Shown here: piece by piece, positions 2,607-36,613 of the stretch | Layout of the letters: each line of letters begins with the position of its first letter | Position numbering within the stretch: the first letter of the stretch is position 1 | Assembly: GCA_021324235.1 (NCBI GenBank) | Contig: JAJPJM010000143.1 | Coordinates: 1-40,004 of the forward strand | Length of the DNA: 40,004 bases | Origin: Verrucomicrobiota bacterium | Lineage (GTDB): Bacteria > Verrucomicrobiota > Verrucomicrobiia > Limisphaerales > UBA11358 | Reading direction: 5' to 3' | The notes under the pieces: generated by a model | What the model saw: only the letters and a program-made list of their open reading frames with translations | Told to the model about the DNA's origin: nothing | Databases searched by the model: none | Program-made: the position numbers and the translations under genes

Positions 2607-2624
2607 ATCGCATGAACATGCGCG
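2607..2624 (+). promoter_or_regulatory. 18-bp locus dyad (site upstream of glucanotransferase)
   Basis: ATCGCAT-GAAC-ATGCGCG matches the ACCGCAT-N4-ATGCGGT dyad found before other alpha-glucan genes of this window, with an exact GCAT/ATGC core. It ends 47 nt before the ATG at 2672. No convincing -10 box lies at the spacing seen for other copies, so it is a weaker member of the set. The 2402-2606 stretch otherwise shows no gene. Confidence 0.5.
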
Positions 2625-2671
2625 GGGTTTTTACTGACAGCTTGCGGCTGATCGGCAAAAGTAACCGGCTG

Positions 2672-5374
2672 ATGAAATTGACCTTTCGATTGCGATATCG
2701 CTCGCAGTTCAGGCAATCGCTCTGGTTGACCGGCGCCCATCCTTCGCTGGGCGGCGGTGAAATTGAAAAAGCCCTGCCGCTTGAGTATCTCAACGATGAA
2801 TTCTGGCAGGTCTCAATTGAGTTGCCGCCGGACACCATAAACACCCCGATCGGCTACGAATATATTTTGCGGAATGCCGACGGTTCGCAGGTGGCGGACT
2901 GGGGCTGTGACCGGGCGCTGGTCGCTTCCGAATTTGGTCACGACGAATTGCTGGTGATCGATTCATGGAACGACGCCGGCTCCGCTGAGAATGTTTTTTA
3001 CACCGAGCCGTTCAAGAAGGTTCTGCTGGTCGGGAGCAGTGCCGAAGTCCACGTTCCCGCACCGGCCAACCCGACCCATACGTTCCGGGTCAAAGCGCCT
3101 TTGCTTGCCAGGGGCCAGACACTCTGTCTGCTTGGCGACGGTCCGGCATTGGGAAATTGGAACACGGCAAAACCCATTTTGCTAAACCGGTCGGCGGCCC
3201 GGAGTGATTTGAGCGTAAAACTGGATTTGCGGGGCCAGTCTTTTCCCATTGCCTACAAATACGGGGTCTTCGACATCGTAAAAAATGTCTTTGCCCGCTA
3301 CGAGGACGGCGCCAACCGTGTCTTGAACGACTTCGCCGCGCCGGGCGGACACACACTCGTCAACGACGGGTTTGTCCGGCTGCCGGCCGACCGTTGGAAG
3401 GGGGCGGGCGTGGCGATTCCGGTGTTCAGTCTGCGGACCGAAAACGGTTTTGGTGTCGGTGAATTTCTGGACCTCAAACCGCTCGCGGAGTGGGCGCACA
3501 AGGCGGGTTTGAAATTGATCCAAATCCTGCCGGTTAATGACACCACCGCCACGCGCACCTGGGTGGATTCGTATCCGTACGCCGCGATTTCGGCATTTGC
3601 GCTGCACCCGATTTACCTGAATCTCCCGCGCGTTGTCACCGGACGAAACCAGGGTCGGTTGAAACCATTGGAACCGGAACGGAGGCGTTTAAACGCGCTT
3701 GATACGGTGGATTATGAAGCCGTTCTGAAGGCGAAGCTCGATTTCATCAAACGGATTTTCCCGTCACAAAAGGCAGGGACGCTGGCAGACGCGGGCTATC
3801 GTTCGTTTTTCTCGCAAAACCGCCACTGGCTGGTGCCCTATGCGGCCTTTTGCCATTTGCGCGACAAATACGGGACGTCCGACTTCAACCAATGGCCGGC
3901 TTTTCGCAGTTACCGGGCGGAAGAAATCGCCGAATTGTCGGCGGAAAATTCCCCGGCGCATGACGACGTCGCGCTGCACTATTTCATCCAATACCATCTG
4001 CATCTTCAATTAACGGAAGCCGCGCAGTACGCGCACGGCCTCGGAGTCGTGCTCAAGGGCGATATCGCCATCGGCGTTTACCGCCACGGTTCCGACGTAT
4101 GGCAACAACCCGAACTTTATTACGTGGAGGTTCAGGCCGGCTGCCCGCCGGACGCCTTTGCGGTGAAGGGACAGAATTGGGGATTCCCCACCTACAACTG
4201 GCCGCGCATGAGGGCGGATGGTTTTGCCTGGTGGAAACGGCGTTTCGAGCAGATGGGCGAGTACTTCGATGCGTTTCGTCTGGATCACATCCTCGGGTTC
4301 TTTCGCATCTGGAGCATTCCCGCGCACGCCGTGGAAGGGATCATGGGATGTTTTGTCCCCGCCATTCCGGTGGACATTCATGAATTTCACGGCCGCGGCA
4401 TCCCGTTTGATTACGATCGTTTTACCCGATCCTATATCACCGATCCGTTGCTCAAGGATATTTTTGGAACCGTTGGCGAATCGGTAAAACGCGAATTTCT
4501 GGTTCCGACGCAAACCGGCAGCTATTCGCTGAGGCCCGAATTCGCCACGCAACGCCAGGTGGAACGCCACTTTGCCGCACGGGAGGAAAACGAGCGCACT
4601 AAAACCATGCGGGAGGGTTTGTACGACTTGATCAGCAACGTGATTTTGTTCGAAGACGAAAATGCCCGGGGACAACGCTTTCATTTCCGCTTTGCGATGG
4701 AAGACACGTTTTCCTTCAAATCCCTGGAACCCCGGATCCAGGCCGGGTTGCGGGACCTCTATCTGGACTATTTTTTCCGGCGTCAGGATGATTTTTGGAG
4801 ACAGGAGGCGATGCAGAAGCTGCCGGCCCTGAAACGCGTCACCAACATGCTCGTGTGCGGCGAGGACCTGGGATTTGTGCCCGCCGGCGTACCGGAGGTG
4901 ATGAAGCAACTGGGTCTGTTGAGCCTGGAAATCCAGCGCATGCCCAAGGACCTCCACCGGGAATTTTCCCGCCCCCAGGACGCGCCGTATCTGAGCGTGG
5001 TCACGCCGTCTTCGCACGACATGAGCACGATTCGCGGTTGGTGGGAGGAAGACCCGCTGCGCACGCAGAGATTTTTCAATCAGGAATTGAACCAGCCGGG
5101 CGCCGCGCCGCCGCATTGCGACGTTTGGATCAATCAGGCCATCGTATGCCAGCATCTGGCCTCCCCGGCCATCTGGAGCATCTTCCAATTGCAGGACCTG
5201 CTGGGACTGAATGAAACCCTGCGGCGCAAGGATTTCGCCGCCGAGCGCATCAACGTGCCGGCCAATCCCAGGCATTACTGGCGCTACCGCATGCACCTGC
5301 CATTGGAGACACTACAGCAGGCGGACGCCTTGAATCAGGAGCTTCGGCGCCTGGTTGAGCAGAGTGGAAGATGA
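2672..5374 (+). CDS. malQ: 4-alpha-glucanotransferase, DPE2 type (CBM20-CBM20-GH77)
   Basis: A 900-residue cytoplasmic enzyme that transfers glucosyl or maltosyl units between maltodextrins and releases glucose from maltose. The start at ATG 2672 (MKLTFRLRY) is chosen because it opens directly on the first CBM20 module; the frame upstream has no domain and contains the regulatory dyad. Two N-terminal starch-binding CBM20 domains (about residues 1-110 and 125-230) precede the GH77 catalytic domain (about 240-890). GH77 signatures are visible: FRLDH (nucleophile D538), VCGEDLG (acid/base E731) and SSHDMS (D783). There is no signal peptide. The two CBM20 domains and the length fit the plant DPE2 / Bacteroidetes branch rather than short bacterial MalQ. 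It probably acts on maltose and maltodextrin brought in by the MFS carrier encoded at 35020-36441. Confidence 0.93.
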   Translation: MKLTFRLRYRSQFRQSLWLTGAHPSLGGGEIEKALPLEYLNDEFWQVSIELPPDTINTPIGYEYILRNADGSQVADWGCDRALVASEFGHDELLVIDSWNDAGSAENVFYTEPFKKVLLVGSSAEVHVPAPANPTHTFRVKAPLLARGQTLCLLGDGPALGNWNTAKPILLNRSAARSDLSVKLDLRGQSFPIAYKYGVFDIVKNVFARYEDGANRVLNDFAAPGGHTLVNDGFVRLPADRWKGAGVAIPVFSLRTENGFGVGEFLDLKPLAEWAHKAGLKLIQILPVNDTTATRTWVDSYPYAAISAFALHPIYLNLPRVVTGRNQGRLKPLEPERRRLNALDTVDYEAVLKAKLDFIKRIFPSQKAGTLADAGYRSFFSQNRHWLVPYAAFCHLRDKYGTSDFNQWPAFRSYRAEEIAELSAENSPAHDDVALHYFIQYHLHLQLTEAAQYAHGLGVVLKGDIAIGVYRHGSDVWQQPELYYVEVQAGCPPDAFAVKGQNWGFPTYNWPRMRADGFAWWKRRFEQMGEYFDAFRLDHILGFFRIWSIPAHAVEGIMGCFVPAIPVDIHEFHGRGIPFDYDRFTRSYITDPLLKDIFGTVGESVKREFLVPTQTGSYSLRPEFATQRQVERHFAAREENERTKTMREGLYDLISNVILFEDENARGQRFHFRFAMEDTFSFKSLEPRIQAGLRDLYLDYFFRRQDDFWRQEAMQKLPALKRVTNMLVCGEDLGFVPAGVPEVMKQLGLLSLEIQRMPKDLHREFSRPQDAPYLSVVTPSSHDMSTIRGWWEEDPLRTQRFFNQELNQPGAAPPHCDVWINQAIVCQHLASPAIWSIFQLQDLLGLNETLRRKDFAAERINVPANPRHYWRYRMHLPLETLQQADALNQELRRLVEQSGR

Positions 5375-5377
5375 GCA

Positions 5378-5406
5378 ATAAAAAAGCCCCGCGCGAGGCG
5401 GGGCTT
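5378..5406. terminator. Bidirectional Rho-independent terminator
   Basis: AAGCCCCGC (5384-5392) and GCGGGGCTT (5398-5406) form a 9-bp GC-rich stem with a 5-nt loop, preceded on the plus strand by a run of A. It sits between the convergent glucanotransferase (stop 5374) and PEP-CTERM (stop 5426) genes. The A-run gives a U-tract for transcripts arriving on the minus strand. Confidence 0.88.
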
Positions 5407-5425
5407 GATGGAAAAACGGATCTGA

Positions 5426-6352
5426 TTACTTCCGGCGGCGAATTGCCAACAGCGTCGTCAAACCGGCGAAACCGAGCATTGCCATGCTGGCCGGTTCGGG
5501 GACGGCGGATACGGTGAAGTATTCACCCGGAGTGCTGCCGAAGTTAAACTGGCCACCACTTGATCCAGTAAAGGGTCCGCCACCGCCCACATTGCCCGTT
5601 CCCACAGGCAAACCCGGAAGGAATTGGTTGGCGAGGTAGGAATCGCCGCCACCGTTGACGTCGGCAAGAACCATAATATTTCCACCGCCGTATCCGATTG
5701 AGGAGAGCGGGATAACCAGTTCATAACCGGTGGTCACGGCGGCGCCCCCAGCGTAAGCTGCACCGGCGGCACCCATGGTGCTGGCATTGTTGTTGTTGAC
5801 GTAAAGGCCTATGGTGCCAACGGTACTTTGGCCGGTGCCATCAATTCCGGCATAAATTCCCGTGCCGCTGTTGGCGAGAGACCCGACGTAACCGCCGGTG
5901 CCGCCAATCAGGTTGTATTCTTCGCTATACAGTGTGCCCGCGTAATCGTTCTCGTCGAAGGCGAAAGTTGCATTGAAGCCCGGGCTAAAAGTGGAACCGT
6001 TCATGGTTGCCAGCGTGCCGGTGGCAGGAGCATTCAAAACGTTTTGTCCGCCCGCCGCGCCGCCTGCAATAAATACGTTCAGGTGATTGCCGTTGTTTTC
6101 GACGTTACCCGCCAGGAACAGGTACAGATTCCCACCGGAAATCGTGCCATAAGCAGCATCCAACTCGGAACCGCCGGCTGAATCATTACCGCCGGCGGCA
6201 TTACCGAAGCCGGTATTGATGGTTTGACCGGCCAAGGGACTGCCGTAGAAACTCGGGCTCACGGTTCCGTTCAGGTTTTGAGCATGCACGCAAACAGTCG
6301 CGCTCAAAAACGCCGAAGCTGCTCCCGTCGCAAGGATTGTGTTGAATTTCAT
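5426..6352 (-). CDS. PEP-CTERM sorted exported protein
   Basis: A 308-residue exported protein with a signal peptide (residues 1-24, ending VHAQ). The middle is low in charge and rich in Gly, Asn, Ser and Thr, probably a beta-rich extracellular domain. The C-terminus is a textbook PEP-CTERM tag: VPEPASMAMLG, a hydrophobic segment, then RRRK at the very end. Such tags are processed by an exosortase and tie proteins to exopolysaccharide export in the families known. No enzymatic motif is visible and the substrate is unknown. A copy of the locus dyad with a -10-like box lies upstream (6425-6442), which suggests co-regulation with the starch genes. It is separated from the next gene by a strong terminator. 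Confidence 0.88.
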   Translation of the reverse strand: MKFNTILATGAASAFLSATVCVHAQNLNGTVSPSFYGSPLAGQTINTGFGNAAGGNDSAGGSELDAAYGTISGGNLYLFLAGNVENNGNHLNVFIAGGAAGGQNVLNAPATGTLATMNGSTFSPGFNATFAFDENDYAGTLYSEEYNLIGGTGGYVGSLANSGTGIYAGIDGTGQSTVGTIGLYVNNNNASTMGAAGAAYAGGAAVTTGYELVIPLSSIGYGGGNIMVLADVNGGGDSYLANQFLPGLPVGTGNVGGGGPFTGSSGGQFNFGSTPGEYFTVSAVPEPASMAMLGFAGLTTLLAIRRRK

Positions 6353-6396: not shown

Positions 6397-6442
6397 AGAT
6401 TAGGGTTTTTCTAACCAATTTGCTACCGCATGTTTGTGTGGT
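6397..6442 (-). promoter_or_regulatory. Locus dyad and -10 box of the PEP-CTERM gene
   Basis: On the minus strand ACCACAC-AAAC-ATGCGGT (6442 down to 6425) is a good copy of the 18-bp dyad. A -10-like TAATCT (6402-6397) begins 23 nt after the dyad's proximal end. The predicted start of transcription is near 6390, about 38 nt before the ATG. The same spacing recurs at several other copies. Confidence 0.72.
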
Positions 6443-6502: not shown

Positions 6503-9500
6503 TCAGGGCACGATTTCAATTTCGTAAAACTTTTGCGGCGCGGCCGGCGATGGGTCGTAAAAAGAGGCGGAAAATCCATTCGTGGTGACGATGGAGCCGA
6601 TGGGTTCGAATGGCTGAGTCAGATTCGTGGTGGCCAGGACCTGATAATTAACCCCCGGCGTGCTCCCCCAGACGATCAACGGATTGGCGCTGGCGTTGGC
6701 CAGGCTGGTGATTTGGAGCGGCAGCGTGACAATGACAGTCTTGTTATCGCTCAGGACAATACCGTTGCTATAGGTCGCTTGAATGTTATACACGCCACCC
6801 GAAGTAATGTTCCAATTGTAAAACAGCGAGTTCATGCCGGGACAACCGGCCACCGTGCCCACCGGACGGATGAAATAGGAGGATTGCGGCTGGAGGACGC
6901 CATTGATGGTAATGTCAAAATTGGAAACGGCCGAGACCAGCGTGGTGCCAAAGCAGGCCTGGATCAGATAAACCAGATTACTACTGTAGGTAACAATGGT
7001 GTTATTGGTCGCCGGGCTGGAAAGGATAACCGTCTGCGGCGGCGCAAGGGTGTTGACCGTACGGGTCAATGTCGTGACCTCATTGGTATAGACGCTGGTC
7101 GCATAATCCGAAAGCCGCACGCTGAGGGTGGCCGTGCCGCTGGAAGCCACGTTGGTGTAGACCAAGTGGAACTCCTGCGGATCGTTCGGATATTGCAGAT
7201 TCAGGGTCTGATTGGGTGTGACCGGGGTGGCGCTGACAAAAATGGGATTGCCGTTGGTATCGTTTCCATTGCCGTTGGCCTGGTGGGTGATGATGTCGTC
7301 GTTGTTCGGGTCGCTGTCCTGAATGTTGAATTGAACGCCGGTCACCGTGCTGTCGGTGCGGACAACCACCGCAAGGGTGCTGTTGGAAACCGGGGTGCCG
7401 TCGCTGGCGGGGGAGACAATCAGGCCGGTGGGCGGCCCGGCTTCGTAATAAAAGGTTTGCGCGAAGGTGTTATATACCTGGGCCTGGTTGGCGTAGACGT
7501 AGTTTTGATTGGTGTAATTGATGACCGGCAGGAAAGTCCGGGCGCGGATGATGTGAAAGCCGGATTGCAATCCGGTGACGGTGTTGTTGGGGTTGAGATC
7601 GTTGTGGAGCCAGACCACGGCGGTGGCGGGGTTGAAATTCGTGATGGCCGCCTGCGTCAGGCCAAACAACTTGGAACCGGAAGGTTCGGCATAGGAAATC
7701 GGCGGGATGCTTTGGCCGGCATACGTGCTGCCGCCGGAAAACAATCCGACCTTGTAACGCACCTGCGCGCCGCTGGACTGGCCGGGAATCGTACCCTTCC
7801 ACCAGTCAATGTTGCCCTGGGCGCTGTCATAATTCACCCACTGCGCCTGCACGACCCGGGTCGTGCCCTTGCCGATGCCAAACGCGCCTTCGGGATTGGA
7901 GCCGTCGGTGGTGTAGTAGATGTAGCCGGTGTTGATTTCCAGCGAGTAGCCGACCCTCACCCAGATGTCCACCGACTGGCCGGCCGCCGGATTGGTCGGT
8001 GACATCTGATTGGCCGGATCCACGGGCACACTGGCGTTGGTCAAGACCGTCACGGGCGCGGCCGGATCATGATAAACCCAGATTGCCGTCTGGTTGGTGA
8101 TCCCCTCGCCAAGGCCGCTGCCGGGGACGACCGTGTTCGCGCCGCCGATGGTGTAATAATACGTCTCCGCGCCCAGCGAAACGATGTTGTTGCTCAAAAT
8201 ATTCCGCGCGGCGAATTTTTCCGGGCCGTTGCGAAACTGGAAGGCCGTTTGTTCGTAACCGAGGAACCGGTCGTCAGCGTAGCCGGGCTTGTTGTCGCGC
8301 AAGTCGAGGAAATTGGTGGGCGCGATGCCCGGCTGGAAAGTTGTCGGACCCAGCCCCATCTGGCTGTTGAGGTCGATGCCGCCATCCAGTTTGACCAGGG
8401 TGTTGGAAGTCGAGGCGTCGCTGCGGACAAGGATGTCGAACGACGCGTTGGTCACCACCGGAATATTAATGGCATAGGTGAGATTGGAGACATTGCCTTC
8501 GCCGGCCGCAACGACCGGTTGGCCGGTGTACGGGTCAACTCCACCACGCATTTTGAAGGGGAACATCGGATCATAATTGAGATCGCCATTGGTGCCATCC
8601 GTGCGATACACCGTGATGTTTGGCACCTGGGTGCCCCCCTGGCGGAAAACGATGGCGTTGGTGGCGGGGTTGGCGCGGCTCGGTTCGGGCCATTGTTCGC
8701 CGTACATCACCCAGCCGTCGCTCGGGATCGCCAGTTCGATGGCGCCGCTACCCGCCGGCGGAGTCGTGTTGACATAAATCAGGCGATTTACCGGGTTCGG
8801 GTCATTGGCCGTTGCCTGGGCGGCACTGAGATTGTTGGTGGCGCCATGTACCAGTAACCGGTGGAAGGCACGATTGCCGCCCGCGACATCGCCGGCACTG
8901 GACAATTGCGTCAGGAGCGTGCCCGGCGGAAAACCGACGATCAGGCCATAACCGCGCGAATTGGGAATGGAAATGTTTGCGGTGTTTGACCCATTGGCGG
9001 TGTTGGTGGCGACCAGATAATAACCGTCGCTCGTTCGGCTGACACCGTCGTCGAAGGCAATATCGCCCGAACTGCCGCCACCCTTGTCATTCATGGCGTA
9101 GACCACCACCGTGGCCACCGGATTGGTATAGGCATTTCCGTAGAGCGAAGGCGGATCCACGTCGCGGTAGTCGTAGCGCTCGAAGGCGACGATGTTCTGG
9201 TCGCTCCAGCGCGAACGGGTGCCGCCGCGGGACAGTTGGTTATGGGTGTACATGGTGTCCGGCATGGAGTTGTCGCCGAATTCGCCCAGGTAGTTGGCAT
9301 AGGAAACAATCGGCGTGCTGCCGTTGGTCAGGCTGGCCAGATTGTGATTGTAACCATCGGAATAAACCATCGGCAGTCCCTCGTGCACGAAGAAATAAGA
9401 ATTCTCCAGCGTTTCGTTCGCCGGGCAGCAGGTGCCATTGTCCTGCGTTTGCGGCATGTTCACGGCCTGCGCCGTGCTGAAGTTGCCGTTGGCGTCGCAA

Positions 9501-10777
9501 TTGCCGCCGGGCGGGATATAATCGCGGCCGTCCATGCCGTAAAGTCCCGGACTGCCCCCGTAATTGTTGATGGCGGAGTTGAACTGGCTGAACAGCGGAA
9601 AGTTGCACAGGCGCAAGCCGGACTGGAGATAATCATTAAAGTCCTCGCCCGCATCGAGCGCTGACGGTTCGTATTCGCCGAAAAGCATCGCGTCGTTGCG
9701 CGGCGATTCGGGATTGAACAGGCTGTTGCGGTTGCCGTCCGTTTCAACGTAGCCGTTGCCGACATCGTTGCTGCCATAGCCGTGGACATAATCGTACATG
9801 GCCTGAACGGCGCCGGCGTAACCGCCGAAGGACGGGTCATCCGTCTGACCGGTTTCGTTGCCGAAGAAGTTCACCGGCACGTGCTTCACGGCATCCAGCC
9901 GGAACCCGTCGCACTTGGTGGTGTAAAGCGTCCACGCCACCGCGCGGCAGAGATAGGTTGACACATCTTCCGGGACCGGCTGCCCATGGCCGTCAAAGGG
10001 CCGCCACCCGTTCAACGGCCCATATCCGTTCGCCGGCGACGGCCAACCGGTGCCCGATCCCGCACCCAACAAGGGACCATTGGTGTCCATGTACAAATCC
10101 GACCTGCCCGGGAACCGGATGAACACCGGTTTGGGAGCCGTATTGCCGACGCTGGCTCCAAAATTCAGGTTGTTCGTGCCCGGTTCCTGTGCCAGATCGG
10201 ACAGGCCCAACAACGGCTGGTCCTCCACCACCGAAGTGGTGCACCAGTAGGGATCACCAATGGACGGCCAGTTCTTATATCCACCCGAGACGACTTGCAG
10301 ATGAAAGTCCTGGGGAATCAGGCCCGGGTAATAATTCGTCGGCGTGCCGGAGCCAGGGTAGGCGGGCACCGTGCTGGACCGGTGGTTCATGATGTTGTCG
10401 AAATAAACGCGGATACCGAACCGATGGGCCGTTTGCACCATCTGAATCAACTGGTCCTCGGTGCCATACATGGTGGCAATCGTCCCCTGCTGGTTCGTGC
10501 TGCCCAGATCAAACGGATCAAACTGGTCGTAACCGACCGAAAACGAGCCGCTGTTGCCCTTGGCCGGGTTGGGCAGCCAAAGGCTGTCGTAACCCGCCTC
10601 CGCAATCTCCGGCATCTTTTGGGTAATCTCGGACCACGGTGTCTGGAACAACTCCAGCATCCCCTCGCCGCGAACGAGACCGGCATCCGGAAAACCCGCC
10701 GCCCACAGGACCGCAACGCACGCCAGGCGCGCGGTCCAAAACCGTGCCCCCATGGAAAAAAAGGAATTTGAATTCAC
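6503..10777 (-). CDS. Very large secreted GH13 alpha-amylase-family protein
   Basis: A 1424-residue exported protein. An N-terminal signal peptide (about residues 1-37, start at 10777 or possibly ATG 10753) leads into a GH13 barrel. Visible motifs are region I DNIMNH (127-132), region II DGFRLDAVKH (nucleophile D295) and region III LFGEYE (acid/base E368). Region IV does not show the usual NHD; the closest match is TQDNG (D446). From about residue 640 onward there are several beta-sandwich, Ig/CBM-like regions without recognised motifs. The last ~70 residues (ending FYEIEIVP) resemble the C-terminus of four other secreted proteins here. It probably acts on alpha-1,4-glucan outside the cell, but exact specificity cannot be read. 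The gene is divergent from the GH57 gene and shares a dyad with it. Confidence 0.85.
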   Translation of the reverse strand: MNSNSFFSMGARFWTARLACVAVLWAAGFPDAGLVRGEGMLELFQTPWSEITQKMPEIAEAGYDSLWLPNPAKGNSGSFSVGYDQFDPFDLGSTNQQGTIATMYGTEDQLIQMVQTAHRFGIRVYFDNIMNHRSSTVPAYPGSGTPTNYYPGLIPQDFHLQVVSGGYKNWPSIGDPYWCTTSVVEDQPLLGLSDLAQEPGTNNLNFGASVGNTAPKPVFIRFPGRSDLYMDTNGPLLGAGSGTGWPSPANGYGPLNGWRPFDGHGQPVPEDVSTYLCRAVAWTLYTTKCDGFRLDAVKHVPVNFFGNETGQTDDPSFGGYAGAVQAMYDYVHGYGSNDVGNGYVETDGNRNSLFNPESPRNDAMLFGEYEPSALDAGEDFNDYLQSGLRLCNFPLFSQFNSAINNYGGSPGLYGMDGRDYIPPGGNCDANGNFSTAQAVNMPQTQDNGTCCPANETLENSYFFVHEGLPMVYSDGYNHNLASLTNGSTPIVSYANYLGEFGDNSMPDTMYTHNQLSRGGTRSRWSDQNIVAFERYDYRDVDPPSLYGNAYTNPVATVVVYAMNDKGGGSSGDIAFDDGVSRTSDGYYLVATNTANGSNTANISIPNSRGYGLIVGFPPGTLLTQLSSAGDVAGGNRAFHRLLVHGATNNLSAAQATANDPNPVNRLIYVNTTPPAGSGAIELAIPSDGWVMYGEQWPEPSRANPATNAIVFRQGGTQVPNITVYRTDGTNGDLNYDPMFPFKMRGGVDPYTGQPVVAAGEGNVSNLTYAINIPVVTNASFDILVRSDASTSNTLVKLDGGIDLNSQMGLGPTTFQPGIAPTNFLDLRDNKPGYADDRFLGYEQTAFQFRNGPEKFAARNILSNNIVSLGAETYYYTIGGANTVVPGSGLGEGITNQTAIWVYHDPAAPVTVLTNASVPVDPANQMSPTNPAAGQSVDIWVRVGYSLEINTGYIYYTTDGSNPEGAFGIGKGTTRVVQAQWVNYDSAQGNIDWWKGTIPGQSSGAQVRYKVGLFSGGSTYAGQSIPPISYAEPSGSKLFGLTQAAITNFNPATAVVWLHNDLNPNNTVTGLQSGFHIIRARTFLPVINYTNQNYVYANQAQVYNTFAQTFYYEAGPPTGLIVSPASDGTPVSNSTLAVVVRTDSTVTGVQFNIQDSDPNNDDIITHQANGNGNDTNGNPIFVSATPVTPNQTLNLQYPNDPQEFHLVYTNVASSGTATLSVRLSDYATSVYTNEVTTLTRTVNTLAPPQTVILSSPATNNTIVTYSSNLVYLIQACFGTTLVSAVSNFDITINGVLQPQSSYFIRPVGTVAGCPGMNSLFYNWNITSGGVYNIQATYSNGIVLSDNKTVIVTLPLQITSLANASANPLIVWGSTPGVNYQVLATTNLTQPFEPIGSIVTTNGFSASFYDPSPAAPQKFYEIEIVP

Positions 10778-10916: not shown

Positions 10917-10990
10917 AATATAATTAGCCGCCGACACATCCACCACCGCATGTTTGTGTGGTGGCTGCCACCAAACACGGGGTGTATCTT
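10917..10990. promoter_or_regulatory. Divergent promoter region around one locus dyad
   Basis: The dyad ACCGCAT-GTTT-GTGTGGT occupies 10945-10962. On the plus strand TATCTT (10985-10990) begins 23 nt after its end, toward the GH57 gene. On the minus strand TATATT (10922-10917) begins 23 nt after its other end, toward the large GH13 gene. One site thus has a -10-like box at identical spacing on both sides. Predicted leaders are about 20 nt for GH57 and about 130 nt for GH13. Confidence 0.72.
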
Positions 10991-11016
10991 GCCGTCCGCA
11001 AAGCCAAAGACCCATT

Positions 11017-19704: not shown

Positions 19705-19722
19705 ACCGCATAAATGTGCGAT
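19705..19722 (-). promoter_or_regulatory. Locus dyad before the GH31 operon
   Basis: On the minus strand this reads ATCGCAC-ATTT-ATGCGGT, with the strong ATGCGGT half nearest the GH31 gene as at most other copies. It lies in the divergent gap between the GH31 operon and the sensor kinase. The ATG at 19676 is only 29 nt away, and no good -10 box sits at the usual spacing on either side, so promoter placement is unclear. Confidence 0.55.
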
Positions 19723-19787
19723 GACTGAAATCATCTTCCGTGCAAGGTCTGCTTGTGCCGGTTCGGTGGTGGCGGCATAATCGGTTC

Positions 19788-21266: not shown

Positions 21267-21281
21267 GGGCGGACTTGTTTT

Positions 21282-21299
21282 GCCGCATGTTTATGCAGT
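21282..21299 (+). promoter_or_regulatory. Locus dyad upstream of the response regulator
   Basis: GCCGCAT-GTTT-ATGCAGT lies in the 91-nt gap between the sensor kinase and response regulator genes. A weak -10-like TAAGAG begins at 21322, 23 nt after the dyad end. This suggests that the regulator has its own promoter controlled by the same factor as the hydrolase genes, perhaps itself. Confidence 0.6.
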
Positions 21300-21357
21300 T
21301 GAGCGGTCACCGCCATTGGAGTAAGAGTAGGGTGTGGTTGCCAGTATTGCCCAGGAC

Positions 21358-24699: not shown

Positions 24700-24744
24700 C
24701 CTGCACAAACATGCGGTAGTATTTAACGGCGCCAATGCTATTTT
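24700..24744 (+). promoter_or_regulatory. Locus dyad and -10 box of the tandem-module protein gene
   Basis: CCTGCAC-AAAC-ATGCGGT (24700-24717) is followed by an extended-type -10 TGCTATTTT, whose TATTTT hexamer (24739-24744) begins 22 nt after the dyad. The ATG at 24775 is about 24 nt beyond the predicted start of transcription. Confidence 0.72.
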
Positions 24745-26691: not shown

Positions 26692-27582
26692 ATGCATCCA
26701 CAACACAAAAATAAGGTCAAAGCCGGGAACGAAGGCTTTACGTTGATTGAGTTGTTGGTGGTCATTGCTATTATTGCGATCCTGGCGGCGATCCTGTTGC
26801 CCGCCCTGGCCAGCGCAAAGTTACGAGCCCAGGTGATCAATGACATGAGCAATAAGCGGCAGTTGACCCTGGCTTGGTTTATGTATGCCGAGGACAACAG
26901 TGACACATTGGTGCTCAATGCCGATCAGTCTGCGGCGGTCAACGGCGCCCAGTCGTGGGTTCCCCCGCTCTGCATCATGAATTGGAACGTTTCCCCCTAT
27001 AACACGAATACCGCGTTGGTGACGACCAATCTGCTGGGGTCGTACTGTGCCGGCCAATTTAAACTTTATACGTCACCGGGGGATAATTTTCTGGCCCCCG
27101 TCCAGCGGGCACTGGGTTATGGTGCACTTTCCAACCATCGCGCCCGGAGCGTTGCCATGGATGCGGCGATTGGCGGCGATGGATTAAGCCACACGTCCGA
27201 CAGTGGCAAGACGGGTTATAAACCGCCAAATTCGCTTGCCAGTCTCAATCCCTTTTTTATCGCAACGAGAATGAGCACGCTGCGCACTCCCAGTGAAAGT
27301 TGGGTGTTTATCAATGAGCACCCCGACAGCATCGACGATGGTATTTTTTACGTCGATCCCAAATCCGCAAACGGAAACGGGACGCTGATCGAATTACCTT
27401 CCAGTTATCTGGGTGGTGGCTGCGGAATTTCTTTTGCCGATGGACATGCGGAGGTTCATCAATGGAAGACCGGCGCGTTCATCGTTCCCGTCAAATACAC
27501 CAGGTACCCTCCCAATCCTGGAATATCCTATACGGGAAATATAGACCTGGCGTGGTTGGCGCAGCACACGCCGTCCCAATAA
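26692..27582 (+). CDS. Prepilin-like (type II secretion/pseudopilin) protein with FADGH C-terminus
   Basis: A 296-residue protein with a type IV prepilin N-terminus: a short charged leader, cleavage site G15/F16, then FTLIELLVVIAIIAILAAIL with the conserved Glu at +5. After the helix comes a soluble domain, and the C-terminal GCGISFADGHAEVHQW matches the H-X9-DG type of protein abundant in Verrucomicrobiota and Planctomycetota. These proteins occur in high copy number in such genomes and their roles are mostly unknown; pseudopilin-like structures are the usual guess. It follows the tandem-module gene by 75 nt, across a hairpin, and may be partly co-transcribed with it. No dyad of its own is seen. 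Confidence 0.88.
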   Translation: MHPQHKNKVKAGNEGFTLIELLVVIAIIAILAAILLPALASAKLRAQVINDMSNKRQLTLAWFMYAEDNSDTLVLNADQSAAVNGAQSWVPPLCIMNWNVSPYNTNTALVTTNLLGSYCAGQFKLYTSPGDNFLAPVQRALGYGALSNHRARSVAMDAAIGGDGLSHTSDSGKTGYKPPNSLASLNPFFIATRMSTLRTPSESWVFINEHPDSIDDGIFYVDPKSANGNGTLIELPSSYLGGGCGISFADGHAEVHQWKTGAFIVPVKYTRYPPNPGISYTGNIDLAWLAQHTPSQ

Positions 27583-30022: not shown

Positions 30023-30068
30023 CTCGCATATATGTGCGGTGGTGCTCAATTGAAAGTTGCCGTACATT
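30023..30068 (+). promoter_or_regulatory. Locus dyad and -10 box of the multidomain GH13 amylase
   Basis: CTCGCAT-ATAT-GTGCGGT (30023-30040) is followed by a -10-like TACATT (30063-30068) starting 23 nt after the dyad. The predicted start of transcription is near 30075, about 20 nt before ATG 30096. No -10-like box occurs at this spacing toward the divergent SGNH gene. Confidence 0.68.
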
Positions 30069-30095
30069 TCCCCCCTCTCGGGTGAAATTCAACCA

Positions 30096-33000
30096 ATGAT
30101 TATATTTGTAAATCGGATAATTGGATTTGCGCATCGCTGTCTTTCACCCTCGCACTTGAAACCCGGGGGTTGGTCTTCCCGTGCCCGGCATTGGTGGGTT
30201 ATCGTCTGGATTCCTGCCCTGTTTGGCCTTGGGGATGCCGGGCTGCACGCGCAGACCACCAATCTTTTCTGGCAGACGCAAAATATTTACCAGATCATCA
30301 CCGACCGCTTTTACGACGGCGATACCAGTAATGACAACGCGGAAGGTACGTATGCACCAGGCAATCCGACGGGTGTCCACGGCGGGGATTTCGAGGGCAT
30401 CGAGCAGAAACTGGACTACATCAAGGCGTTGGGGGCAACGGCCATCTGGATTTCCCCGATCGTGCTGAACACCGAGGGGCAATTTCACGGTTATTCGGCC
30501 TGGGATTTCTACCAGGTCGCGCCGCATTGGGGTTCCATCTCCAACTTGCAGCATCTGGTGCAGGCGGCGCACGCACGCGGTTTGTTGGTGATTGATGATA
30601 TCGTCGTCAACCACGCGGGCGACCTCGTCCAAAGCAGCGGTTCCACCTTTAATTACCCAACCGGCTACACCCTCAGTTATCGAAACAGCAATCAGACCTA
30701 TCCCACCCCTTTCAATCTCAGCACGGCCAATCCGTCGCTCACCAATCTGTTTCACAATTACGGCAACATTCAAAATTACAACGACACCAATCAGGTCTTG
30801 TTGGGCTGGCTCTCCGGGCTGAATGATTTTCGGACGGAAACGCCGTATGTGCGTACCAACATGGCGGCGATTTACGAGTATTGGATCAACCAGATTGGCT
30901 TTGACGGATTCCGTGTGGATACGGCTCTGGAGGTGGACATGGGTTGCTGGCAATACTTTTGCCCGGCGATTCATGCCTATGCCACGGCCAATGGCGACAC
31001 GAATTTTTTCATCTTTGGCGAAACGTTTAATGGTTCCGAAACCCTGGTCGGCGCTTACACTGGAACGGAGGGTGGTGGACCGTTCAAATTTGATTCCGTC
31101 CTGGACTATCCACTCTACGAAAACGCGATTCAAAGCGTGTTCGCCACGGCCAGCGGCCCGACATCCCAGATTCAAAATCACTATAACAACCTTGATGCCT
31201 ATTACGATCCCGCGTCGCGAATGCAACTGGTCACTTTTCTGGATAATCACGACAACCCGCGATTTCTGAGCACCAGCGAGGCGAGTGGCAACACCAACCG
31301 GCTGGAACTGGCGCTGGCCTTCCTTTATACATCGCGCGGCATTCCGAGTCTCTATTACGGCACTGAACAGGGGTTTGACGGAACCACCGACCCGAATGAC
31401 CGGGAAGACCTGTTTGCCGGGGAGTTCAAGGATGGCCCGGGCGGCACGGTCCAGCAACTGGGTTCGCCGGGCGTGGACAACTTCAATATGACCCATCCGC
31501 TGTTCCAATGGATCGCCCAGTTGAACAATTTCCGCCGGTTGTATCCGGCGCTCACCCTCGGCTCGTACACCAATCGTGCCCAGAATTCCACCGGTCCCGG
31601 GCTGTTGGCCTATTCCCGGGTGTTGAATACGCAGGAAGTGTTCGTGGTTTTGAACACTGCCGGTTCGACGCAGACATTGTCTTCCTGCACTCTGACCTAT
31701 CCCGGGGGCACGGTGCTGGTCAATTTGCTAAACCTCAATGAGACTTACACATTGAATGCCAGTTCGCAGACGCCGGCCATCGCCGTGCCAGGCACCTCGG
31801 CGAAAATTTTCATCTCTCAATCACTATTATTGCCGCTCGACCCGGTGGTCGTGAGCAATTCACCGGCGCACGACGCTGCCAACGTGCCCATCAATTCGCC
31901 GATCGTGCTCCAATTCAGCAAGCCGATGGACACAAACAGCGTCCAATCAGCGTTCAGCACAAACCCAACTGTCGGCGGCACGTTCGCGTGGTCGGCGGCG
32001 CATGACACGATGACTTTTACTCCCGGCGGCGCCGGGCTCCCCGCGCTGAGCACCGTCGTCGTCCGCCTCACCAATTCGGCAATGGACACGGTGTCCGGCA
32101 ATATGATGTTTGCGCCATACCAAATGCAGTTTCACACCGGCAGCACCACCGCCGACGTGACGCCGCCGACCCTTGCCCTGCTCACGCCCACCAACAGCGC
32201 GATGGTTTCGGGGAATTTGCTGATTTCGGGGACGGCGGCGGACAATATCGCGGTGCAGAAAGTTGAGATCGAATTGGACAACGGCATTTGGACAACCGCG
32301 GTCGGGACCAATTCATGGAGTTTAAATCTGAACAGTTCAAATTTTCTTAACGGTCCGCACCTGATTTCCGCCCGGGCGACGGATACCAGCGGCAATATTT
32401 CGGTCACGAACACCGCCAGCGTTTGGTTTTTCAACGTGCCCGGCAACTACGCCCAGCGCGTCAGTGGCGGCAATCCCGCAAACGTTACCGATTGCAGTGG
32501 CAACCTCTGGTTGATGGACACCGCTTACACTTTTGGCGCGTTCGGTTATTCCGGCGGCACCGCCGGCTACCTCAACAACGTTATCAGCGGCGTCTGTTCA
32601 TCGGCACAATCGCTCTACCAGCGTGAGCATTACAGCACGTCCAGCGGAGGATTCGATTATGAGTTTGATGGTCCCGAGGGCATCTATGAAACCACGCTGC
32701 TCGAGGCCGAAACCTATTGGAACGGTCCCGGCAAACGCGAGTTCAACGTCTTCATCCAGGGCCGGCAAGTGCTGACCAATTTCGACATCTACGCCGCCGC
32801 CGGCGGAATGAACCTTCCGATTTCACTCGTCTTCACCAACGCCGTGACGAACTCGCAACTGCAACTATTATTTACGCCCGGCGCCGCGGACAACGCGCGC
32901 GTCTCCGGCGTACAGGTCCGCAAAATTGCCGACGTGTTCAGCGACACGGACGGCATTCCCGACTGGTGGCGGCTGGCTTATTTCGGCCATGCCCTCGGCT

Positions 33001-33338
33001 CGGCGAGCGACCGGTCACGTGGCTCGGACGACGCGGATGGTGACGGCGTGTCCAATCTGACGGAATATCGGAGCGGAACGGACCCGCTCAATCCGGCGTC
33101 CTACCCGATATTGCCGCCTTTCAATCTTCAGCTCATCGATGTTGCGGGCAGCAGTGTCCAGTTAAGCTTTTCATCGGCAACCAATTGGACCTATCAGCTC
33201 CAGCGTTGCAGCAGCCTCGGCCCTGTCGTGTCCTGGTTGAACGTGGGGTTGGCCGTGTCCGGCACCGGCGGGACGATTTTGTCGAGCGATACCGGTGCGA
33301 CGGATGTCACGCGGTTTTATCGTGTGCTGGCCTATTGA
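30096..33338 (+). CDS. Secreted multidomain GH13 alpha-amylase with malectin-like and calcium-repeat domains
   Basis: A 1080-residue exported amylase. ATG 30096 is preferred to TTG 30057, since the latter lies close to the predicted -10 box. A long n-region leads to a signal peptide ending near residue 53 (AGLHAQ). The GH13 barrel begins IYQIITDRFYDGDTS, in the style of the CGTase/maltogenic group, and has complete motifs: DDIVVNH, DGFRVDTA (D275), FIFGETF (E309) and FLDNHDNPR (D386). It is followed by an Ig-like domain of Big_5 type (about 580-683), a second Ig-like domain (about 685-780), a malectin-like domain (about 783-945), and a calcium-binding repeat region with DTDGIPDWW and DDADGDGVSNLTEYRSGTDP (about 950-1005). 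The last ~70 residues, ending FYRVLAY, are the shared C-terminal module. It should cut starch outside the cell. Confidence 0.9.
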   Translation: MIIFVNRIIGFAHRCLSPSHLKPGGWSSRARHWWVIVWIPALFGLGDAGLHAQTTNLFWQTQNIYQIITDRFYDGDTSNDNAEGTYAPGNPTGVHGGDFEGIEQKLDYIKALGATAIWISPIVLNTEGQFHGYSAWDFYQVAPHWGSISNLQHLVQAAHARGLLVIDDIVVNHAGDLVQSSGSTFNYPTGYTLSYRNSNQTYPTPFNLSTANPSLTNLFHNYGNIQNYNDTNQVLLGWLSGLNDFRTETPYVRTNMAAIYEYWINQIGFDGFRVDTALEVDMGCWQYFCPAIHAYATANGDTNFFIFGETFNGSETLVGAYTGTEGGGPFKFDSVLDYPLYENAIQSVFATASGPTSQIQNHYNNLDAYYDPASRMQLVTFLDNHDNPRFLSTSEASGNTNRLELALAFLYTSRGIPSLYYGTEQGFDGTTDPNDREDLFAGEFKDGPGGTVQQLGSPGVDNFNMTHPLFQWIAQLNNFRRLYPALTLGSYTNRAQNSTGPGLLAYSRVLNTQEVFVVLNTAGSTQTLSSCTLTYPGGTVLVNLLNLNETYTLNASSQTPAIAVPGTSAKIFISQSLLLPLDPVVVSNSPAHDAANVPINSPIVLQFSKPMDTNSVQSAFSTNPTVGGTFAWSAAHDTMTFTPGGAGLPALSTVVVRLTNSAMDTVSGNMMFAPYQMQFHTGSTTADVTPPTLALLTPTNSAMVSGNLLISGTAADNIAVQKVEIELDNGIWTTAVGTNSWSLNLNSSNFLNGPHLISARATDTSGNISVTNTASVWFFNVPGNYAQRVSGGNPANVTDCSGNLWLMDTAYTFGAFGYSGGTAGYLNNVISGVCSSAQSLYQREHYSTSSGGFDYEFDGPEGIYETTLLEAETYWNGPGKREFNVFIQGRQVLTNFDIYAAAGGMNLPISLVFTNAVTNSQLQLLFTPGAADNARVSGVQVRKIADVFSDTDGIPDWWRLAYFGHALGSASDRSRGSDDADGDGVSNLTEYRSGTDPLNPASYPILPPFNLQLIDVAGSSVQLSFSSATNWTYQLQRCSSLGPVVSWLNVGLAVSGTGGTILSSDTGATDVTRFYRVLAY

Positions 33339-33492: not shown

Positions 33493-33537
33493 GCTGCATG
33501 TTTATGCGGTTGTGGCGATTAAGGGTACGTTGATAAT
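33493..33537 (+). promoter_or_regulatory. Locus dyad and -10 box of the second ~470-residue GH13 gene
   Basis: GCTGCAT-GTTT-ATGCGGT (33493-33510) is followed by TGATAAT, whose GATAAT hexamer (33532-33537) begins 22 nt after the dyad. The predicted transcription start falls almost on the ATG at 33544, which suggests a leaderless or very short-leader mRNA. The gap 33339-33492 shows no gene. Confidence 0.72.
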
Positions 33538-33543
33538 GAATCT

Positions 33544-34962
33544 ATGATTAGCAGATTTTTGAATAACTCACAATTCGTTCTGGTACGCCGAACGACGAAA
33601 TACTGTCTGTGGCTCCTTGTCTTGCTTGGTTCGGTCGGGTCGATGGCGCGGGCGGATGAGGATTTCTCCCGTGAAGCCGCGCAGCCGGGCCCGGCGTGGC
33701 TGCGGGACGGTGTCATTTACGAAATTTTCCCGCGTGACTTTTCCCCGGCGGGCAATCTCAGTGGCGTTACCGCGAAACTGGACCAATTGCACCAGTTGGG
33801 AGTCACCATCCTTTGGATCATGCCGATCCAACCCATCGGCGAAAAATTTCGCAAAGGAGAATATGGCAGCCCTTACTCCATCAAGGATTATTACGCGGTC
33901 AACCCCGATTACGGAACGCTGGAGGATTTCAAACAACTCGTGGTGCAGGCGCACCAGCGCGGGATGAAGGTGATCATGGATTGGGTGGCGGACCACACGG
34001 CCTGGGACAGTGTGATGATGGAACACCCCGAATTTTATAAACAGGACGCCACGGGCAAAATCCTGCCGCCCATTCCTGATTGGACCGATGTGGCCGGGCT
34101 GAATTACGGTAATCCGCAGCTCCGTGATTATATGATCACGATGATGACGTACTGGGTTCGCGAATGCGATATCGACGGTTGCCGATGTGACGTGGCCTCC
34201 ATGGTGCCGACCGATTTCTGGTTGAAGGCGCGGGCCGCCATCGCAAAGATTAAACCGGATTTCATGTGGCTGGCCGAGGCCAGCGAGCCGGGCTTGCTGG
34301 TGAAGGCCTTCGACGTCGACTATGACTGGCCGCTCATGGCCACGCTGAACAAGGTTTTAATGGCCGGCGCGCCGGCTTCAGATCTGGAGGCGACATGGGA
34401 GACCAGCCGGCGTGAATTTCCGAAGGGCGCGCTGCACATGCGCGTTTCGGACGACCATGATGAATCCCGCGCGGTGGCCCGCTTCGGCGTCAACGGGGCC
34501 CTGGCAGCCTCGGCACTGATGTTCACCCTCAATGGTGTCCCCTTGCTTTACAACGGCATGGAGGTCGGCGATGCGACGGAATCCGGTGACCCGGCATTGT
34601 TCGACAAGCTGACCATTTTCTGGCATCCCAAGGGGCGTCCGCCGCTGCGCGAGATTTATCGGAGCCTGATCCGCCTGCGAAAACAATACGCCGGTTGCTT
34701 TTGCAACGATCAGGTGGTCTGGCTGCGCAATTCCGACGCAGCCGATGTCGTTGCGTTCATGCGGGAGGATGAAAGCGACCAGTTCGTGGTCGTGATTAAT
34801 TTTTCCGACCGGCCGGTATCGGGCCAGTTGAAAATGAAATCAAGCGACGGTTTCCAGCCGGTGCGCATTTTGGGAATGCCGGACGGCGATGTCAGCAACC
34901 TGCCGGGTTTTCACCTCAATGGCTTCGAATGGCGGATTTACCACCGTGCAGTGCCCAAATAA
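33544..34962 (+). CDS. Exported GH13 alpha-amylase-family enzyme (catalytic residues intact)
   Basis: A 472-residue GH13 enzyme with a signal peptide (about residues 15-37, cut near SMARA-DEDF). It is the closest relative of the protein at 1010-2401 in this window, but it keeps every catalytic position: DWVADH (H151), DGCRCDVAS (nucleophile D216), WLAEAS (acid/base E245) and DDHDES (D306). Short length and lack of extra domains suggest an enzyme acting on oligosaccharides in the periplasm. Trehalose synthase or oligo-1,6-glucosidase-type activity cannot be excluded from sequence alone. A good dyad and -10 box lie directly upstream. The MFS sugar transporter gene converges on it from the other side. 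Confidence 0.9.
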   Translation: MISRFLNNSQFVLVRRTTKYCLWLLVLLGSVGSMARADEDFSREAAQPGPAWLRDGVIYEIFPRDFSPAGNLSGVTAKLDQLHQLGVTILWIMPIQPIGEKFRKGEYGSPYSIKDYYAVNPDYGTLEDFKQLVVQAHQRGMKVIMDWVADHTAWDSVMMEHPEFYKQDATGKILPPIPDWTDVAGLNYGNPQLRDYMITMMTYWVRECDIDGCRCDVASMVPTDFWLKARAAIAKIKPDFMWLAEASEPGLLVKAFDVDYDWPLMATLNKVLMAGAPASDLEATWETSRREFPKGALHMRVSDDHDESRAVARFGVNGALAASALMFTLNGVPLLYNGMEVGDATESGDPALFDKLTIFWHPKGRPPLREIYRSLIRLRKQYAGCFCNDQVVWLRNSDAADVVAFMREDESDQFVVVINFSDRPVSGQLKMKSSDGFQPVRILGMPDGDVSNLPGFHLNGFEWRIYHRAVPK

Positions 34963-35019: not shown

Positions 35020-36441
35020 TTAGTGCGCGCCCGCCGGGCTGCGCGCCAGAGGTTCTCCGCCGGTTTGCTTGAAGGTCACCACCAGAAACGTCAGTAATGC
35101 CGCCAGCCCCATGCTGGCACCGCCGATGACGAGCGCGTTCGCGGGTTCGCTGTGCAAAAAATGTTTTAAGATGAAGCCCAACAGGCTGGAGGCGGTAATC
35201 TGGGGCAGCACGATGAACAGATTAAACAATCCCATCATGACCCCGACTTTTTCCTTCGGCAGCGAGGGTGCGAGCATGGCGTAAGGCATGGAGAGGATGC
35301 TCGCCCACGCGATGCCAATCGCCGTCATGGAGATCAACAGGTGATATTTATCTGAAGCCAGAGGGACAGACGCCAATCCCAGTGCGCCCACCGCCAGACA
35401 GAGAACGTGCATCAATTTGGGGCCGGTATGTTTCGTGCCCCACAACAGCACGAATGAGAAAAAGAAGCATACGACGTTGTACGCAGCGAAACAGAAGCCC
35501 GACCAGGAGCCGGCAGCCTCCATTTCCACCGAACCGGGTGCCGCATGAAAGATGTTTTTGGCCACGGCTGGAGAAAAATAAACCCACATCGCGAACATCC
35601 CGATCCACGTGAAGAATTGAACCAGTCCCAGTTCCCACATCCGCCGGGGCAAACGATGGGGCAGATGATAGGCCAACTTCGCAAACCTTACGAAGGATTG
35701 AACCAGTCCCAGTTCCCACATGCGCCGGGGCAGATGATAGACCAGCGCAAGGATGGTGCCCAAGCCGAGCGTCCAATCAAACTTCCGCGCACGGATGGCA
35801 GCCAGTTCGGAGTCAGAGGGCGGATATTCCCTGGTGGTAAAAACCGTCCAGAGTACTGCCCCCATGAATGCCGCGGCGCCGATGTAAAACGAGAGTCGGA
35901 CGGAAGCGGGTACATGCCCGTGCCCCGCGCCCTCGGAGGTGACGCCAAACCAGTTGGTCATCATCCAGGGCAAGGCTGACCCAATGGTGCCGCCCAGGCC
36001 AATGAACAGGGATTGAACGGCAAAGCCCTGGGCATTTTGTTCTTCGGGCAGATTGTCCGCCACCAGGGCCCGGAACGGCTGCATACTGGCATTGATGGTT
36101 CCGTCCAACACCCAGAGCAGCCCGGCCGCCATCCACACCGACGGGCAATTGGGCATCAAAATCAGCGCCAACGATGCGAGCATTGCGCCGCCCAGAATAA
36201 ATGGACGCCGCCGGCCCAACCGCGTCCAGATGCGGTCGCTGGATTGTCCGACCAGCGGCTGGATGATTACGCCGGTGACGGGCGCGGCCAGCCACAGGAT
36301 GGCCAGGGAATCGGCGTTCGCCCCGAGATAACTGTAGATGGCGCTCATGTTGGCCATCTGCAGACCCCACCCGAACTGAATGCCCAGAAAGCCGAAACTC
36401 ATGTTCCAGATTTGCCAGAAATTTAAGCGCGATTTTTGCAT
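35020..36441 (-). CDS. MFS sugar transporter of the sucrose/maltose (GPH/SLC45-like) type
   Basis: A 473-residue membrane carrier with about 12 predicted helices. The start at ATG 36441 (MQKSRLNFWQIWNMSFGFLGIQFGWGLQ) matches the usual N-terminus of this group; upstream codons from 36489 overlap a possible -10 box. Family features are QPLVGQSSDRIWTRLGRRRPFI after helix 2 and LGLVQFFTWIGMFAMWVYF at helix 7. Relatives such as Caulobacter MalY move maltose or sucrose with protons. In this locus maltose or maltodextrin is the likely cargo, feeding the cytoplasmic glucanotransferase. The central loop holds an in-frame 27-residue tandem duplication containing LPRRMWELGLVQ twice (DNA period 81 bp, around 35616-35750). 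Confidence 0.9.
   Translation of the reverse strand: MQKSRLNFWQIWNMSFGFLGIQFGWGLQMANMSAIYSYLGANADSLAILWLAAPVTGVIIQPLVGQSSDRIWTRLGRRRPFILGGAMLASLALILMPNCPSVWMAAGLLWVLDGTINASMQPFRALVADNLPEEQNAQGFAVQSLFIGLGGTIGSALPWMMTNWFGVTSEGAGHGHVPASVRLSFYIGAAAFMGAVLWTVFTTREYPPSDSELAAIRARKFDWTLGLGTILALVYHLPRRMWELGLVQSFVRFAKLAYHLPHRLPRRMWELGLVQFFTWIGMFAMWVYFSPAVAKNIFHAAPGSVEMEAAGSWSGFCFAAYNVVCFFFSFVLLWGTKHTGPKLMHVLCLAVGALGLASVPLASDKYHLLISMTAIGIAWASILSMPYAMLAPSLPKEKVGVMMGLFNLFIVLPQITASSLLGFILKHFLHSEPANALVIGGASMGLAALLTFLVVTFKQTGGEPLARSPAGAH
35616..35750 (-). repeat. 81-bp in-frame tandem duplication in the MFS transporter gene
   Basis: The stretch beginning ATTGAACCAGTCCCAGTTCC occurs at 35616 and again at 35697, with near identity over about 45-50 bp. 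The period of 81 bp equals 27 codons, so the reading frame is kept. It lies in the loop before the presumed seventh helix. High identity suggests a recent event. Confidence 0.85.
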
Positions 36442-36510
36442 GGAAAGATGATCAAAGGTTATCAGCCGGGTCGAATTTGCGGGCAGCATAACTCCTTGAG
36501 CGGGGAAGTT

Positions 36511-36528
36511 CAGGTTGGTTCATGCGGT
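36511..36528 (-). promoter_or_regulatory. Degenerate dyad near the MFS transporter promoter
   Basis: CAGGTTG-GTTC-ATGCGGT (plus-strand reading) has one perfect half. On the minus strand a -10-like TATGCT (36490-36485) begins 21 nt beyond it, toward the MFS gene, whose ATG at 36441 would then have a leader of about 37 nt. The gene-proximal half is poorly conserved, so this is tentative. Confidence 0.4.
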
Positions 36529-36567
36529 GTTCCTGATGACAGATACCGGGTAACCACACAAGGGTAA

Positions 36568-36613
36568 ATCACACGTTCATGCGGTGGCACCGGTCTTCGA
36601 AATGCATTATGCT
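36568..36613 (+). promoter_or_regulatory. Locus dyad before the branching-enzyme-like gene
   Basis: ATCACAC-GTTC-ATGCGGT (36568-36585) is followed by -10-like CATTAT (36605-36610, 20 nt after) or TATGCT (36608-36613, 23 nt after). The distal half is weak and the proximal half perfect, as in several other copies. The predicted start of transcription is close to ATG 36620. Confidence 0.6.

Follow-up and report, generated by a model that had tools for sequence, protein, structure and literature searches.

The window analysed here is the entire 40,004-base contig JAJPJM010000143.1 of a 3.09-Mb Verrucomicrobiota draft genome (185 contigs), or ~1.3% of that genome. It encodes five GH13 enzymes, a GH57, two GH31, a GH77 with a CBM20, a PEP-CTERM protein, an MFS transporter, a tandem-module protein, a sensor histidine kinase and a response regulator. 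An 18-bp inverted repeat (the dyad), with the refined consensus ACCGCAY-RWWY-RTGCGGT, lies in eight gaps between these genes and is the candidate operator of the kinase-regulator pair. The sites considered were:

6425..6442, minus strand: dyad ACCACACAAACATGCGGT, in front of the PEP-CTERM gene; TAATCT after 22 bases
10945..10962, no strand assigned: dyad between the divergent GH13 (6503-10777, minus) and GH57 (10954-14448, plus) genes; TAnnnT after 22 bases on both sides
19705..19722, no strand assigned: dyad in the gap that separates the minus-strand GH31 pair from the plus-strand kinase gene; no clear -10 where the usual spacing would place it
21282..21299, plus strand: dyad between the kinase and response-regulator genes, putative autoregulatory site; weak -10 TAAGAG
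24700..24717, plus strand: dyad in front of the tandem-module gene; TATTTT after 21 bases
30023..30040, plus strand: dyad before the secreted GH13 gene; TACATT after 22 bases
33493..33510, plus strand: dyad before a GH13 gene; GATAAT after 21 bases
36568..36585, plus strand: dyad between the MFS (minus) and GH13/CBM48 (plus) genes, weakest of the eight; TATGCT after 22 bases
2607..2624, plus strand: previously proposed site before the GH77 gene, unsupported
36511..36528, plus strand: previously proposed degenerate site, unsupported

The kinase-regulator pair and the predicted targets were:

19740..21266, plus strand: sensor histidine kinase with HisKA_3 and HATPase_c domains, called from GTG (ATG at 19788)
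19869-20507: predicted lectin-like sensor domain of the kinase
21334..21987, plus strand: NarL/FixJ-type response regulator with Response_reg and GerE helix-turn-helix (HTH) domains, recognition helix ISIDTVRSYVRT; proposed dyad binder
5426..6352, minus strand: PEP-CTERM protein, predicted target
6503..10777, minus strand: large GH13, predicted target
10954..14448, plus strand: GH57 with a CBM25/CBM53-like module (below both cut-offs), ATG start at 11017; predicted target
17019..19676, minus strand: GH31 with PA14, predicted target
24775..26616, plus strand: tandem-module protein with weak CBM53/AMPK1_CBM similarity below the cut-offs, predicted target
30057..33338, plus strand: secreted GH13 with Big and malectin domains, predicted target
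33544..34962, plus strand: GH13, predicted target
35020..36489, minus strand: MFS transporter, possible target
36584..38761, plus strand: GH13 with CBM48, predicted target

The preliminary description of this DNA had listed ten copies of ACCGCAT-N4-ATGCGGT. Allowing up to 3 mismatches, this string had 13 matches in the window, compared with 2.85 expected from shuffles, and none of 100 shuffles reached 13. The dyad is real and far above chance in the window. Sites were ranked with a position weight matrix (PWM) trained only on 21 sites from relatives, and thus held out from the window. Its top eight places were 33493, 21282, 19705, 24700, 10945, 6425, 30023 and 36568 (scores 22.8 to 12.3), which are eight of the ten listed copies. 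The best score per Markov shuffle had a mean of 9.9 and a maximum of 20.1 (60 shuffles), so the scores of 30023 and 36568 fall within the shuffle range. Two features of the 21-site matrix were not forced by the selection and held in 42 of 42 half-site readings: the base preceding the spacer is a pyrimidine, and the two middle spacer bases are A/T. Two of the eight gap sites overlap the first bases of an open reading frame (ORF) when its most upstream start is taken. Sites equivalent to 19705 and 21282 were present at the same places in four related loci (L070, L071, L073 and L096).

The other two listed copies were rejected. The site at 2607 scored 10.4, about the shuffle mean, had no -10 and was covered by the ORF called at 2507-5374; as a GH77 site it had few counterparts, GH77 being preceded by only 2 of 151 scored sites. 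The degenerate site at 36511 scored -11.4 with the held-out PWM, and 195 places scored higher. The closest match to the originally described string (36219, 1 mismatch) is inside the MFS coding sequence and looks like chance.

Genome-wide scans were pattern searches, with the reversed pattern as control. The refined pattern NYYRCAYRWWYRTGCRGT had exactly nine matches in the genome. Eight were the window gaps, and the ninth was in an ExbB/MotA-like frame (identified by eye). Under random placement, the chance of at least eight of the nine falling in the window is 7e-15; the pattern being drawn from the window's own sites, it is the contrast that matters and not this figure. With up to one mismatch there were 12 matches per strand vs 3 and 5 for the reversed pattern. 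The originally described string with up to two mismatches was found at 15 places, the same as its reversed control (15), six of them inside the window. From the nine outside, eight were in open frames and one (L002) resembled a terminator hairpin. A purine/pyrimidine-only pattern was discarded as too loose (40 matches vs 32 in the control).

Because the refined pattern came from the window itself, the motif was tested on DNA from relatives. Among palindromic 5-mer dyads counted, without any matrix, in the intergenic parts of 29 loci from relatives, CCGCA-N6-TGCGG came first. It occurred 19 times in 42.8 kb of intergenic DNA vs 9 times in 447 kb of coding DNA, gene calls here following a simple ORF rule. 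A motif equally dense in front of unrelated genes or within coding sequence would speak against a regulon; this is not what the pattern, coding and relatives' controls gave.

For the regulon in relatives, sites were taken at a score of at least 16 with the window's matrix (n = 151, window included), and a target was called when a window-gene homologue began within 450 nt of a site. The list of homologues includes pilin-like and TPR genes, which are not alpha-glucan genes. In the window and the kinase/regulator loci, 92 of 103 sites were near such a start. The homologues near sites were most often the regulator (16), the kinase and the tandem-module gene (13 each) and GH57 (11), together with GH13 types, GH31 and others. 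Of the 48 sites on the remaining stretches, 31 were near such a start. These stretches were picked from the first search of relatives, leaving out a type of site (e.g., CTGCACGTTGATGCGGT) in which the last spacer base is G and the second or third is T, and which recurs in genomes with and without a regulator orthologue, as well as several single sites in orthologue-free genomes. The predicted core regulon is alpha-glucan use, PEP-CTERM proteins and the system's own regulator genes. Records with a related kinase were nearly all Verrucomicrobia-labelled metagenome assemblies, with a subdivision 3/Limisphaerales/Pedosphaera label in 27 of 58 loci.

The dyads stand at a set distance from a -10-like hexamer. 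A first pass over 121 sites (242 flanks) showed a sharp enrichment of TAnnnT at 21-22 bases past the dyad. When all 151 sites were used, 45 of 139 gene-facing flanks had TAnnnT at 21 or 22, vs ~1.5 per other offset. It was also found in 20 of 162 other flanks, as expected where a promoter is divergent or a target lacks a window homologue. The exact p-value was given no weight, since related genomes contribute flanks that are not independent. In the window, exact TAnnnT at 21 or 22 bases was found at 6425 (minus side), 10945 (both sides), 24700, 30023 and 36568. Two of three key bases were present at 33493 (GATAAT) and 21282 (TAAGAG). The hexamers earlier placed 22-23 nt after the dyad were thus exact at all the sites named except 33493; 36568, previously called weaker, was exact as well, and 21282 is indeed weak. 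With the first T of the hexamer set to -12, the dyad spans -51 to -34 with its centre at -42.5 (one base further for a spacing of 22), in agreement with the earlier estimate of -43. Class II activator sites are centred near -41.5 to -43.5, upstream of the -10, and the position predicted from the spacing fits this range. As first described, the half nearest the gene is usually the perfect one: in the window and relatives pooled, the promoter-proximal half was perfect in 37 of 45 cases, vs 14 of 45 for the distal half. This spacing and the better proximal half are, as far as sequence can tell, the marks of a class II activator.

The candidate regulator (21334-21987) has a receiver domain (PF00072) and a GerE/LuxR-type HTH (PF00196) in one protein, both above cut-offs. 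Its HTH matches among solved structures include ComA and DosR. The kinase (19740-21266) has PF07730 (HisKA_3) and PF02518. A PDB sequence search with its sensor domain gave only a streptavidin-like match (E 0.42). Kinase and regulator were adjacent in 23 of 27 kinase loci (L070-L096). In the exceptions they were ~5 kb apart (L086), the regulator was on another contig (L089), or none was found (L072 and L074). In many kinase loci there were sites before the kinase or between kinase and regulator. In the relatives' kinases of this pair at L096:7474-11070 and L205:7175-10807, the predicted lectin-like sensor is followed by a Reg_prop beta-propeller and a Y_Y_Y domain, and then by the kinase core.

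Dyad and regulator occurred together. In the first search of relatives, counting perfect palindromes on both strands, the motif was found in 27 of 28 genomes with a regulator orthologue (at least 77% identity; 119 hits, control 6) and in 31 of 89 without one (44 hits, control 17). We then surveyed 320 genomes across the order, taking E of at most 1e-88 as orthologous and scoring the best 9 regulator candidates per genome, so that misses are possible. The 43 genomes with the regulator had 142 perfect dyads (control 14), with at least one in 40 and at least two in 36; those with none were G007, G186 and the window's own genome. The 277 genomes without it had 136 perfect dyads in 112 genomes (control 69), and only 20 of the 277 had at least two. 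The highest counts among the 320 genomes were 8 (G135) and 7 (G268). In 12 same-genus genomes without a regulator orthologue, nine of the single perfect dyads were in open frames and three were intergenic, one of which (G040) precedes a kinase orthologue. No strong dyad was found near divergent paralogue pairs in G098, G107 and G042 (20 kb each; L097, L098 and L099), which may have their own motif. These pairs share the short kinase layout, are ~40% identical, and two of the three have a GH31 gene nearby.

The strongest link between the dyad and its putative regulator is a joint change of recognition helix and half-site. The helix ISIDTVRSYVR was identical in all listed orthologues except one clade. 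In that clade it reads ISTDTVRYYVR in G001 (contig C17) and in L207 of G186 (changes S193Y/I188T), and the dyads there are CTGCA-N6-TGCAG. G185 has two regulators: one, 91% identical to that of G186, has VRYYV with three CTGCA dyads, and the other has VRSYV with CCGCA-type sites. For the half-site tally, position 3 could be any base and each regulator contributed a single locus (45 in all). In the 42 VRSYV loci, 98 of 110 half-sites had C there and 3 had T; in the three VRYYV loci, 19 of 20 had T. CTGCA dyads numbered 4 in G001, 3 in G185 and 4 in G186, and at most 3 in the other 317 genomes, 263 of which had none. All 3 in G185 and all 4 in G186 were on the contig of the VRYYV regulator, as were 2 of the 4 in G001. 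The single regulator match in G186 is of the VRYYV type, and this genome has no perfect CCGCA dyad. G001 and G185 carry both regulator types, each beside its own motif type. In the tree the VRYYV regulators formed one clade (100/100) nested within the orthologues (100/97), indicating that the switch in specificity was one event and not three. The changed serine aligns with DosR Asn183, a numbering that rests on the Lys179-Lys182-Asn183 spacing. Contact of Asn183 with bases is reported in a passage of a review (PMC4082495).

We assign the dyad to regulator 21334-21987 because of its position, its co-occurrence with the regulator, the dyad-free paralogue pairs and the covariation of helix and site. 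We consider it highly probable that the dyad is the operator of the pair 19740-21987 and serves class II activation of alpha-glucan genes. We infer binding, phosphorylation, activation and ligand as follows. The membrane kinase would sense a signal outside the cytoplasm via its lectin-like domain, probably an alpha-glucan or its breakdown product, and would phosphorylate the NarL/FixJ-type regulator. A regulator dimer would bind ACCGCAY-RWWY-RTGCGGT at about -42.5, overlapping the -35, and recruit RNA polymerase as a class II activator. Switched on would be the amylases, the alpha-glucosidases, the tandem-module protein, the PEP-CTERM protein, perhaps the transporter, and the kinase and regulator genes themselves. 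The alpha-glucan regulon with an activator over the -35, as proposed in the preliminary description, thus held for position, targets and confinement to the locus, in relatives too; activation is read from the position. On a more far-reaching proposal we are evenly divided: that the lectin-sensor kinase reads extracellular alpha-glucan directly, and that the regulator was duplicated into two insulated, coexisting copies, S193Y with I188T recoding C:G to T:A in each half-site across the promoter set.

Several observations weigh against this reading. Exact TAnnnT was present in a minority of flanks, and 19705 has none at 21-22 bases. Neither the window's own genome nor G007 has a perfect CCGCAYNWWNRTGCGG dyad, the window sites are all imperfect, and the genome-wide search with the refined pattern partly re-finds the sites that defined it. 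Outside the clusters, 17 of 48 sites had no window-gene homologue: six precede small proteins with PEP-CTERM-like tails (one Pfam-confirmed), one a GH97 and one a glycogen phosphorylase, and among the rest some are inside frames and some near genes without a visible link. L087 had no above-threshold dyad in 19 kb around the pair, although three were on that genome's other stretches. For the covariation, the Fisher p = 8e-14 overstates independence, the switch being one event. In G001, two of the four CTGCA dyads are outside the cluster; a CCGCA half occurs in one of its three sites, and a CTGCA half in one site near the VRSYV regulator. In three same-genus genomes (G004, G027 and G039), alpha-glucan, PEP-CTERM or tandem-module genes are preceded by dyads but there is no regulator orthologue, the best regulators being 55, 53 and 60% identical; assembly loss may account for this (91, 93 and 74% complete). 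G044 and G040 have a kinase orthologue without a regulator orthologue, and in G040 no regulator was found in the 2 kb after the kinase.

The dyads that persist before alpha-glucan genes in G004, G027 and G039 would also fit another factor encoded elsewhere, such as a LacI-family sugar repressor, with the kinase-regulator pair merely one of its targets. LacI-family proteins commonly regulate sugar use. Yet a change in the helix goes with one in the half-site, and both helix types occur in two genomes, each beside its matching motif. The RWWY centre with its 4-nt spacer also differs from the LacI dyad, which is CpG-centred. Among the 20 window proteins scanned there was no other DNA-binding regulator and no LacI-type domain; for LacI, the search did not extend to the rest of the genome. 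We regard such a factor as improbable. The same regulator could instead bind the dyad and repress by covering the -35, where repressors act too. The narrow spacing to the -10 and the better promoter-proximal half are rather as for contact with RNA polymerase, and the analogous ComA and DevR are activators according to excerpts from PMC4797271 and PMC3029386; we give repression little credence.

A reading of the dyads as a repeat element, as terminator hairpins or as chance matches, without any role in regulation, appears extremely unlikely. The terminator-like intergenic match L002, the chance-like sites at 36219, 2607 and 36511, and the equal genome-wide counts with up to two mismatches (15 and 15) would agree with it. 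It is opposed by the local enrichment, the shuffle, coding and reversed-pattern controls, the set -10 spacing and the conservation across the order, and we rejected the terminator or repeat reading for all matches except L002.

Alpha-glucan or glycan use is elsewhere controlled by activation through MalT and SusR/HTCS. MalT and SusR are one-component, MalT being an ATPase whose sites are direct repeats, and HTCS are single-chain hybrids of kinase, receiver and AraC-type HTH. Unlike these, the system described here would consist of a separate membrane kinase and a NarL-type regulator with an inverted repeat; kinase and GerE-type regulator are separate genes, not the single-chain HTCS layout. 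The closer likeness is to ComP-ComA, also NarL/FixJ-type. ComA has a HisKA_3 kinase partner, as here, and its signal is a quorum peptide. The ComA box of Bacillus subtilis, as given in part of PMC4797271, has the hexamer consensus TTGCGG with a 4-nt spacer and is bound by a homodimer that activates. The dyad shares the two-hexamer layout and the 4-nt spacer, but its hexamer (ATGCGG) is oppositely oriented about the dyad centre and the targets differ. In the NarL-type DevR/DosR dormancy regulon, the promoter-proximal DevR box overlaps the -35, as stated in an excerpt of PMC3029386. The dyad would overlap it likewise, whereas motif, signal and genes are different. The titles and abstracts searched described neither an alpha-glucan regulon nor a pairing of regulator and site in this Verrucomicrobiota group. 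The regulon appears to be new, with a mechanism that by analogy would resemble the ComA and DevR/DosR regulators. For bacteria represented in this analysis solely by metagenome assemblies, the pair supplies a regulator, a motif and a list of targets that can be tested. The paralogue pair offers a natural experiment in how a NarL-type regulator may change its DNA specificity and rewire promoters.

The remaining genes of the window were:

986..2401, plus strand: GH13, without a dyad of its own
2507..5374, plus strand: GH77 4-alpha-glucanotransferase with CBM20
14424..16964, minus strand: GH31, its upstream neighbour being the GH31 at 17019..19676
22261-24084: carbamoyltransferase gene, within the cluster
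26692..27582, plus strand: prepilin-like protein, downstream of the tandem-module target

The two GH31 genes (14424..16964 and 17019..19676) are separated by 54 bases and are probably cotranscribed, as judged from this gap. The tandem-module protein (24775..26616) is probably starch-binding. Small proteins with PEP-CTERM-like tails were repeatedly found downstream of the dyad (L102, L111, L112, L114, L125, L131 and L135), and this recurrence suggests that alpha-glucan use involves a surface or matrix protein. The carbamoyltransferase gene was also present in several relatives' clusters. The tandem-module gene and the prepilin-like gene after it formed a conserved run, shared with relatives such as L078, L081, L090 and L093 and often continued by GH13 and MFS genes.

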